Part shown: piece by piece, positions 356 through 36,306 of the stretch
Position numbering within the stretch: position 1 is the stretch's first letter
Layout of the letters: each line of letters begins with the position of its first letter
The notes under the pieces: model-generated
Seen by the model: only the letters and a program-made list of their open reading frames with translations
What the model was told of the DNA's origin: nothing
Databases searched by the model: none
From: Lachnospiraceae bacterium G41
GTDB taxonomy: Bacteria; Bacillota; Clostridia; Lachnospirales; Lachnospiraceae
Length of the DNA: 64,000 nucleotides
Reading direction: 5' to 3'
Assembly (NCBI GenBank): GCA_900100245.1
Contig: FNEU01000001.1
Location: 1 to 64,000, forward strand
Translations under genes and position numbers: made by a program

Positions 356-793
356 TTATTTTTTCTGAAGCACATCGCCCATGTAATTGATACATTTAAT
401 CGCTTCGTTGTAATTTGCTTTACCTGCATTAAACATTTCTTCGTTATATTCTTCATCCAATGCGCCATGAAAGCACGTAGAAGAGTTTGCAATATAGGTT
501 GTTGCTTTATCCGAAAGCATCTTGCAGTCCTTAAATTCCTTTGGCGGTTCAACCTTTGAAAATTCTTCAAATGCATCTTCCAAATTATCCAAAGAATCGT
601 ATAATTCTTGCTTGTAATTATCTTTATTTGTATCAATTGTATCTATTATTGCTCCGGTTGTAACTATCTGCTCATAGAGCTTTTCTACTTCTTTGTGATA
701 CTCATCGTATTTGTTAGTCTTGTCTGTACATGCGCACATACACAGAACACCAAGAGCTACAAAAATACCGAGAGCATATTTCTTAATTCTCAT
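356..793 (-). CDS. Small putative lipoprotein of unknown function
   Basis: This 145-residue protein begins with MRIKKYALGIFVALGVL and a cysteine cluster (LCMCAC) that fits a lipoprotein signal peptide with lipobox. The mature part is acidic, helical and cysteine-poor, with segments such as YDEYHKEVEKLYEQI and DNLEDAFEEF that suggest a helical bundle. I do not recognise a family. It is transcribed away from ilvB, and its stop lies only 28 bases from the end of the IS3 element, so the insertion replaced whatever originally lay just downstream of it. The start has a Shine-Dalgarno-like GGAGGAA just upstream (around 796-802). The lipid-anchored location is inferred from the signal only. Confidence 0.72.
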   Translation of the reverse strand: MRIKKYALGIFVALGVLCMCACTDKTNKYDEYHKEVEKLYEQIVTTGAIIDTIDTNKDNYKQELYDSLDNLEDAFEEFSKVEPPKEFKDCKMLSDKATTYIANSSTCFHGALDEEYNEEMFNAGKANYNEAIKCINYMGDVLQKK

Positions 794-34294: not shown

Positions 34295-34323
34295 TTGAAT
34301 ATATACACAAAATTTGGTAATAT
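34295..34323 (+). promoter_or_regulatory. Promoter of the SHOCT-repeat gene
   Basis: TTGAAT, a 17-base spacer, TAATAT, with an overlapping TATAAT at 34321-34326. It lies about 120 bases before the start codon, in the 219-base gap after RNase G. Confidence 0.65.
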
Positions 34324-34351
34324 AATTAAGTGATATAAGCGTTCAAGAGAG

Positions 34352-34377
34352 AATCTAATTATGTTAGATTTTATCTT
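34352..34377 (+). terminator. Leader hairpin with T run (possible attenuator)
   Basis: AATCTAA, loop TTATG, TTAGATT, followed by TTATCTTTTTT. It lies ~25 bases after the predicted transcription start and before the gene at 34442. It is AT-rich and weak, so it may act conditionally or only partly. Confidence 0.45.
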
Positions 34378-34441
34378 TTTTCGCTTTTATAATAATTTTT
34401 CATGATTCCACGCTTAAGGGGAACGAAAGGGAGGTTAAGGA

Positions 34442-36136
34442 ATGGCAACTGCTCAGGTATTTTCTTGTAATTACAGCGGCAGCATCAAGAATAAGTTGCT
34501 TAAAGGCGGAGATAAGTTGTTCTTAAAGATTGAGGACACCAAGATTTCCGGAAAGGCTTTCATCTGCAACGAGGAAGGTCGTAACGGATATATCGATAAC
34601 TTCGAATATCCTATCAATGATGTAAGAGAAGTATATAAGGGTGATTATCAGGGTGATGTTGCTCTTATTATGAATACACGTATAACCAGTTTGTACGGAA
34701 CCAAGAAAGCTCAGACTATTTTCCCTGCAATCAAGGATATCGATGTAGTAGTTGAAATCCTTGGCGAATTAAAGGAGAAGACAGCTGCAGCAGGTAGTAC
34801 AGGCGGAGCACCCAGAGCTGCTACAACACAGAGCCAGCCTATTGCTCGCCCCGTAGCACCTACTCCCAGTGCACCTTCACCCGCAGCACAGCAGGTTCCC
34901 ACAGCACCTGTTCCTTCAGCAAGCCTCGATGCAAAGAGCATCAAGCAGGAAGTTACACAGAGTGTTGTTGTTAAGAAAGATTCCGGTATCGGTGGCAGCG
35001 ATGCAATCGGCGGCGCACTTCTTAACAGAAAACCCGCAGAACCCATGAGAACCGCTTCCAATGCCGTAGGAAGTGCAGTTATGCAGAAGGGTTCACCCGC
35101 ACCTGCTCCCGCTCCCGCACAGCCTACACCTCAGCAGCAGAAAAAGAATGATTCCGAAGATTTCCAGAAGAGAATGGAAAAACTTTACGTTCTCAAGGAT
35201 TGCGGAATGTTAACAGATAAAGAATTCGATGCAAAGAAACTCGAACTTGTTTCGGAACTTTGCGGAATGACAGACTTCAACGAAAAGGTTCAGAAGCTCG
35301 TTGTTCTTAAGGAATGCGGAATGCTTTCCGAAAAAGAATTCGATTCCAGAAAAGTTGATATCATCAAAGAGTGCTGCTCAACAGATGTTGAAGACCTCGG
35401 CGAATACAAGAGAAACGTTGAGAGACTTCCTTATCTTAAACTCGGTGGCATGATTGATGAAGCTGAATTCATAGAGAAGAAGAACCAAGTACTTGCAGAA
35501 GTTGAGTATTCAGATCTTGATCCCGATGAAATCACACTTAAGAAACTCGAAAGATGGCCCGTTCTTCGCGATGCAGAAATGCTTACAGAAGACGAATTCA
35601 AGATCAAAGTTCAGCAGCTTGTTGATCATATCGATGTTTCAGAATTCGACAGCATCGAATTACTCAGCGCTAAACTTAAAAAGTGGCCCCTTCTTGTACA
35701 GGCTAAGCTTATTTCAGAAGGCGAATTCAAGAAGAAACAGACAGACGTTATCGATGCATTTACAAATGCTCCTTGGAACGATGTTCCCAGCTTCACAGTT
35801 GTTGTTGAAAGACTTATGGCTCTTAAAGATTGCGAATGGCTTTCAGAGCTTGACTTCCATTCAAAGAAGGTTGAACTTCTCAGAAAGGTTGCTAATGTTG
35901 AAGATTACGTTACAAAGGTTCAGCTTTACTTAGCACTTCCTCAGATTGGTCTTATTTCACAGGGCGACTTCGAAGTTAAGAAACAGGAATTCGTTGATGA
36001 AATCTTTGCTCCAGGAAACGGATCTACAGAAGAGTTCCAGACCAAGGTTAAGAAACTCATGGATCTTGAAAAGACCGGAATGCTTTCAACAGATGAATTT
36101 ACTAACTACAAGATGAAGTTAATGAGCGAATTATAA
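34442..36136 (+). CDS. Protein with eight tandem SHOCT-like repeats and N-terminal PH-like domain
   Basis: The 564-residue protein has three parts. Residues 1-~115 form a beta-rich domain (FSCNYSGSIKNKLLKGGDKLFLKI, PINDVREVYKGDYQGDVALIM) that resembles bacterial PH domains. Residues ~116-235 are an Ala/Pro/Gln-rich linker. Residues ~238-564 hold eight copies of a ~40-residue unit of the form L-x-x-L-K-D-x-G-M-L-x-x-x-E-F-x-x-K-K, each close to the SHOCT motif. Units 1, 2 and 8 are the most regular. No catalytic residue is seen. The GGGAGG RBS, own promoter and even codon use suggest high expression. Function unknown; multivalent binding is inferred. Confidence 0.82.
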   Translation: MATAQVFSCNYSGSIKNKLLKGGDKLFLKIEDTKISGKAFICNEEGRNGYIDNFEYPINDVREVYKGDYQGDVALIMNTRITSLYGTKKAQTIFPAIKDIDVVVEILGELKEKTAAAGSTGGAPRAATTQSQPIARPVAPTPSAPSPAAQQVPTAPVPSASLDAKSIKQEVTQSVVVKKDSGIGGSDAIGGALLNRKPAEPMRTASNAVGSAVMQKGSPAPAPAPAQPTPQQQKKNDSEDFQKRMEKLYVLKDCGMLTDKEFDAKKLELVSELCGMTDFNEKVQKLVVLKECGMLSEKEFDSRKVDIIKECCSTDVEDLGEYKRNVERLPYLKLGGMIDEAEFIEKKNQVLAEVEYSDLDPDEITLKKLERWPVLRDAEMLTEDEFKIKVQQLVDHIDVSEFDSIELLSAKLKKWPLLVQAKLISEGEFKKKQTDVIDAFTNAPWNDVPSFTVVVERLMALKDCEWLSELDFHSKKVELLRKVANVEDYVTKVQLYLALPQIGLISQGDFEVKKQEFVDEIFAPGNGSTEEFQTKVKKLMDLEKTGMLSTDEFTNYKMKLMSEL

Positions 36137-36142
36137 AATAGA

Positions 36143-36171
36143 AAAAGACTTGCGAAAGCAAGTCTTTTTTT
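36143..36171 (+). terminator. Terminator after the SHOCT-repeat gene
   Basis: Stem AAGACTTGC / GCAAGTCTT with a GAAA tetraloop and a T run of seven. Very strong by appearance. Confidence 0.92.
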
Positions 36172-36197
36172 ATGCTCATTATTTTATAAATTATTTG

Positions 36198-36232: not shown

Positions 36233-36306
36233 GTATGCCGCATAACGAGGTAAAAGAGGCTTTTTGCCCACCACAGTTAGCGAGATTGTTAATAAGGAGG
36301 TGCCTT
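36233..36306 (+). ncRNA. Putative ribosomal protein L21 leader
   Basis: The ~74-base untranslated leader between the promoter and rplU contains GC-richer conserved-looking blocks (GCCGCATAACGAGG, GGCTTTTTGCCCACC) and ends in AAGGAGGTGCCTT. The GGTG of the RBS region can pair with CACC at 36269-36272, and AGGC near 36257 with GCCT, which would close the RBS. L21 leaders in Bacillota are autoregulated. The family match is by position and sequence feel, not by a covariance search. Confidence 0.65.

Follow-up and report, generated by a model that had tools for sequence, protein, structure and literature searches.

An eight-unit SHOCT protein encoded between the RNase G and L21 genes of Lachnospiraceae, with a predicted alpha-solenoid array

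Why does a gene for a protein ending in eight consecutive SHOCT-like units lie between the genes for RNase G (rng) and ribosomal protein L21 (rplU)? This question arises from a 64,000-nucleotide stretch of DNA from Lachnospiraceae bacterium G41 (contig FNEU01000001.1, positions 1 to 64,000), referred to here as the window. We examined whether the repeats are genuine, how the gene is distributed and expressed, and what role its product (the long form) may have. The features of the locus are collected in Table 1.

Table 1. Features of the eight-SHOCT locus (nucleotide positions in the window; residues of the encoded protein for the single units).
Feature	Position	Strand	Description
Promoter candidate	34295..34323	+	TTGAAT (34295) -17 nt- TAATAT (34318); alternative -10 TATAAT 34321-34326
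5' leader hairpin	34348..34392	+	AGAAUCUAA..UUAGAUUUU, then U-rich tract ending in UUUUUUCGCUUUU; hairpin at about 34350-34372
Eight-SHOCT protein gene	34442..36136	+	564 aa, ATG start, SD GGGAGG
N-terminal domain	34442..34792	+	Residues 1-117, beta-rich, PH-like fold suggested
Ala/Pro-rich basic linker	34793..35149	+	Residues 118-236, predicted disordered, length variable
Eight-SHOCT hairpin array	35159..36133	+	Residues 240-564; predicted alpha-solenoid with an acidic net charge (about -21)
SHOCT units 1-4	Residues 240-277, 278-320, 321-363, 364-405		By inspection and self-alignment
SHOCT units 5-8	Residues 406-449, 450-487, 488-530, 531-564		By inspection and self-alignment
Intrinsic terminator	36138..36173	+	-20.4 kcal/mol, z=-7.9; may act in both directions

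The protein was compared with the Pfam SHOCT profile (PF09851), which it matched with 44.6 bits (cut-off 27 bits; E=1e-11), and four stretches passed alone. A relative from locus L011 reached 66 bits. An independent HMM, trained solely on five single-SHOCT sequences that do not belong to the array, recovered eight domains in order. By this HMM, the window copy scores low at units 3 and 5 (0.1 and 1.8 bits), all eight units of L011 score at least 6.8 bits, and the best score among 2,107 shuffled or reversed arrays was 5.8 bits. Because the HMM recovers eight units and finds almost none in shuffled arrays, the array is real and not a compositional effect. The eight SHOCT copies proposed in the initial annotation are thereby confirmed. 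The units are 34-44 residues long, with a period of 38-44. The most canonical SHOCT is unit 1 (33.6 bits), which follows the linker directly, and units 3-7 are diverged. Unit 8 forms the C-terminal end of the protein, which agrees with the usual C-terminal position of SHOCT, within 50 aa of the end in 89% of proteins. A search of NCBIfam with the protein gave low-complexity or sub-threshold matches only. A weak PF09851 match elsewhere in the same genome (C9:243216) lies inside a radical-SAM-type protein and was taken as chance.

The gene product shares with known SHOCT proteins (PF09851) the motif, the two-helix hairpin and the C-terminal position. It differs from most of them, which have one copy, in its fixed bacterial eight-unit array and predicted solenoid. 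Eberhardt et al. (2013, PMC3581485) found that most model organisms lack SHOCT. The same paper reports an eight-SHOCT protein in Naegleria gruberi (D2VS68), so the array, previously called unusual, is rare but not unprecedented. In the literature searched, the coverage of which is incomplete, a SHOCT array was nowhere described from bacteria.

The N-terminal domain had been described as PH-like, a fold whose hallmark is a barrel of seven strands with a C-terminal helix as its cap. In the AlphaFold2 model it is beta-rich, with a pLDDT of 50, and a Foldseek search returned a list rich in PH-containing chains (Spt16, GRK2, BBS5, Trio and PTB), all at E>=0.16. Seven N-domains searched against Pfam at E<=10 matched no PH or bPH family, although such a search could miss a diverged domain, and gave no convincing match to any family. 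The protein resembles bacterial PH-domain (bPH) proteins in that its SHOCT part is headed by a beta-rich domain of some 115 residues, and PH plus SHOCT fusions are described in PMC3581485; it differs from them in that none of the PH families in Pfam matches it. The domain is beta-rich but poorly predicted, its model being too poor for a fold to be claimed, and a PH-like fold is suggested only.

SHOCT-like domains have been placed in submembrane assemblies (PMC11237479), and the domain statistics in that paper and in PMC3581485 would fit a platform beneath the membrane, for stress or signalling, akin to the PSP/SPFH systems. Several unrelated SHOCT matches in our survey were indeed SPFH-type or membrane proteins. 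However, within the window's genus no PSP, SPFH or membrane gene adjoins the long form, and the hydrophobic stretches of the protein are too short to span a membrane (maximum KD19 1.17). We regard such a platform as unlikely.

The distribution of the gene was then surveyed. It was present in 24 of 31 genomes of the window's genus and in 12 of the 13 with a completeness of 90% or more and a contamination of 5% or less; by these counts it is near-universal in its own genus. The order rng - gene - rplU was kept in every genus locus holding both flanks, as well as in one genome of a second genus (G364, g5). The L014 locus has an additional stretch of about 3 kb between the gene and rplU. Of 29 loci from other genera, 13 have rng upstream of rplU and on the same strand as it, and in nine of these the two are 108-269 bases apart. 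Since this adjacency is common in other genera, the gene is an insertion into that arrangement, in agreement with the initial annotation, which had it interrupting the run from RNase G to L21.

Among 397 genomes of the family, representing 334 genera, the long form was found in four genera (g1, g5, g117 and g23), and no further long form turned up among 391 genomes sampled from the class. The carriers are uncultured Lachnospiraceae of the rumen and the gut. Thus, within its genus the gene matches SHOCT and is neither sporadic nor poorly conserved, but across the family it was seen in only four genera. Its position also varies among them, with rplU on another contig in G034 and the gene located elsewhere, not beside rplU, in G146 and G373. 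In G373, the gene (L072, 5718-7253) encodes a protein of 511 aa with the shortest linker and lies amid transposase-like ORFs; it may have been acquired horizontally. All four genera have eight units, which align one to one down to 28% identity. Each window unit found its best match in the same-position unit of G364, and in the other genera this was the case for most units.

Other Lachnospiraceae genera carry a short form of 229-281 residues, consisting of a CxxC...CxxC zinc ribbon, an N-domain, an Ala/Pro linker and one SHOCT. Comparison by hhalign shows the N-domains of the two forms to be homologous (99.35%, E=6e-21), and that of the long form is picked up when the short-form profile serves as the query (3.7e-9). 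The two forms also share the linker type and the SHOCT at the linker end. The short form differs in its own N-terminal zinc ribbon, its single SHOCT and its typical location beside a [FeFe]-hydrogenase-like gene. No clear array of two to seven units was seen among the fetched loci, one two-hit ORF in L133 apart; this sampling was biased toward relatives of the query, and the multi-unit matches were the long form. The simplest history that we infer from these sequences is that one SHOCT was duplicated to eight in the common ancestor of the long-form genera. An ancestor with an N-domain, a linker and a single SHOCT probably underwent this duplication before the carrier genera diverged, and in two or more of these genera the long form would have taken up its place between rng and rplU as its own transcription unit.

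Some further relatives were noted during this survey. The short form adjoins the [FeFe]-hydrogenase-like gene in several Lachnospiraceae genera (L033-L035, L037, L038, L073-L076), where cotJC and gltX are often nearby, and a functional link is possible. A 385-aa protein (L090:466-1623) combines an N-domain-like pattern and one C-terminal SHOCT with a different middle region; given this protein, the family may be wider than the long and short forms. Second paralogues, with an open frame of 180-216 aa, were found at G176:C16:7418-7897, G229:C26:7852-8241 and G206:C1:178812-179195. Their matches to the short-form profile fall for the most part on its zinc ribbon and N-domain, and they apparently lack a full SHOCT.

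The initial annotation also gave the gene its own promoter, a possible attenuator and a strong terminator. The promoter candidate is a weak match to the consensus and falls below the threshold of the consensus scan, but its hexamers can be read, and TTGAxx -17- TAxxxT is likewise readable upstream in the genus relatives inspected. The leader hairpin, folded alone, has an energy of -6.3 kcal/mol (z=-2.8), and it occurs at one site in the whole genome. Over 12 leaders, 97% of its cells were paired; two pairs were changed on both sides, which is within the shuffle range, and the stem is almost entirely A-U. It was not seen upstream of the gene in L015. On these alignments the hairpin is gene-specific and conserved; it may act as an attenuator, stabilise the mRNA or have no effect. 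In the window, Rfam gave no family at the gathering threshold and nothing for the leader. The terminator is strong, as annotated, and a hairpin-plus-T stretch follows the gene in those relatives whose 3' flanks were inspected. Downstream, rplU has its own promoter (TTGACA-17-TATTAT). Owing to this terminator and the separate rplU promoter and leader, the eight-SHOCT gene is most likely its own transcription unit. At 36239-36284 (+), where an L21 leader would be expected before rplU, there is a sub-threshold match to the Rfam L21_leader (15.4 bits against a gathering threshold of 36). Relatives within the genus seem to conserve this leader, which may be a diverged version of that family. In loci L003, L009 and L016, the interval from the terminator to rplU holds additional sequence, GC-rich or palindromic, that could represent mobile repeat elements.

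Selective constraint was estimated by comparison with L007, in which large dS values are saturated. The dN and dS values were 0.0036 and 0.52 for the N-domain, 0.069 and 0.90 for the array, and 0.17 and 1.17 for the linker, which has the highest dN of the three protein regions. The corresponding values were 0.008 and 0.38 for L21, 0.31 and 3.9 for RNase G, and 0.086 and 2.6 for Obg. With a dN/dS near that of L21, the N-domain is under constraint as strong as that on a ribosomal protein. Codon adaptation was calculated relative to the ribosomal-protein region, a reference set that includes a few non-ribosomal ORFs, with five genome stretches and the window as the background. The value for the gene was 0.827, the highest of the 121 ORFs compared, and that for L21 was 0.826. 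From this high codon adaptation, the protein is probably abundant, and the low dS of the gene and of L21 fits codon selection.

These data bear on a second explanation, in which the protein is a translation or ribosome-assembly factor linked in function to the products of the downstream genes (L21, L27 and Obg) and to RNase G, encoded upstream. The conserved synteny described above, together with codon adaptation and slow evolution like those of L21, is what such a factor would lead one to expect. Yet the gene has its own terminator and rplU a separate promoter and leader, so that the two are not co-transcribed by design; the gene is elsewhere or not beside rplU in G034, G146 and G373; and the array is strongly acidic. 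A ribosome-linked role, suggested by neighbourhood and expression, seems to us quite improbable.

The structure was predicted with AlphaFold2 run on 12 genus members. Residues 234-563 form 16 helices (405-412 and 415-420 being taken as one helix) with a mean block pLDDT of about 89, and each of the eight units consists of two helices joined by a hairpin loop of 4-5 residues. The helix pair and short loop agree with SHOCT, whose hairpin has two amphipathic helices and no internal indels. The full model has a pTM of 0.49, and more than 200 residues are disordered or unresolved; the pLDDT of the linker, which has a pI of 10.5, is below 50. The prediction is thus confident for the array but not for the N-domain. 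Because the helices are confident and the loops between hairpins are only 4-8 residues long, the model favours one continuous alpha-solenoid rather than eight flexible beads. The predicted fold shares with HEAT/TPR alpha-solenoids the tandem two-helix units of about 40 residues and the superhelix, but no sequence relationship to them was found. Foldseek gave no match to the array at E<0.001. VIA-align returned generic HEAT-like helical-repeat matches only, weak in structural terms (Z under 8), and the fold was not named from them. A PDB sequence search with the full and N-domain profiles gave chance matches only, namely an Ala/Pro stretch of myosin light chain and designed TIM barrels, for which no stretch passed alone.

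The initial annotation had suggested a multivalent scaffold or an oligomer-forming protein. Eight related modules after a flexible linker might act as independent sticky beads, making the protein multivalent, self-assembling or condensate-forming. Bead arrays usually vary in copy number. Here the number is fixed at eight, with one-to-one alignment of the units in four genera, and the predicted packing is continuous. The one published multimerisation test, made with an isolated SHOCT, found none (PMC3581485). Independent beads are consequently a decidedly doubtful explanation, and the proposal of oligomer formation gains no support here; scaffold or adaptor remains the most reasonable part of the earlier suggestion.

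Binding of nucleic acids by SHOCT hairpins acting like helix-hairpin-helix motifs, a hypothesis raised in PMC3581485 and favoured by the linker, basic in most members, and by the zinc ribbon of the short forms, is very improbable because the array is acidic in every member examined (net charge -12 to -21, pI about 4.7-5.0), and the linker charge is not conserved in G146 and G373.

We therefore return to a soluble adaptor or scaffold. The reading that we prefer, with a probability of about one half, is that of an abundant cytosolic protein in which a constrained N-domain, a disordered linker and an acidic solenoid tether a client complex. The eight hairpins are predicted to stack one upon the next and so form a single rigid, acidic alpha-solenoid. 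The N-domain would dock on a partner or at the membrane surface, the basic disordered Ala/Pro linker would give reach, and the solenoid would offer an extended groove to be bound by another protein. The molecule could in this way tether or organise a client complex. Its homology to the similarly laid-out single-SHOCT proteins, its lack of a predicted membrane segment and the occurrence of SHOCT-like domains in submembrane assemblies (PMC11237479) also speak for this reading. Support decreases in the order of abundance, solenoid and adaptor role. The neighbours differ between genera, and therefore the gene context points to no partner. Somewhat below even odds, and so tentatively, we also propose that the SHOCT hairpins build a true alpha-solenoid, that is, a fixed eight-unit platform, abundant, constrained like a ribosomal protein, descended from a single-SHOCT ancestor and belonging to rumen and gut Lachnospiraceae.

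SHOCT is a widespread domain, and a protein with eight packed units that has a close single-unit relative provides a direct experimental handle on it. If the solenoid is real, it would add a repeat type to the bacterial set and suggest that SHOCT is an interaction hairpin rather than an oligomerisation tag. A near-universal, unannotated protein of rumen bacteria that is predicted to be abundant is a gap worth closing.
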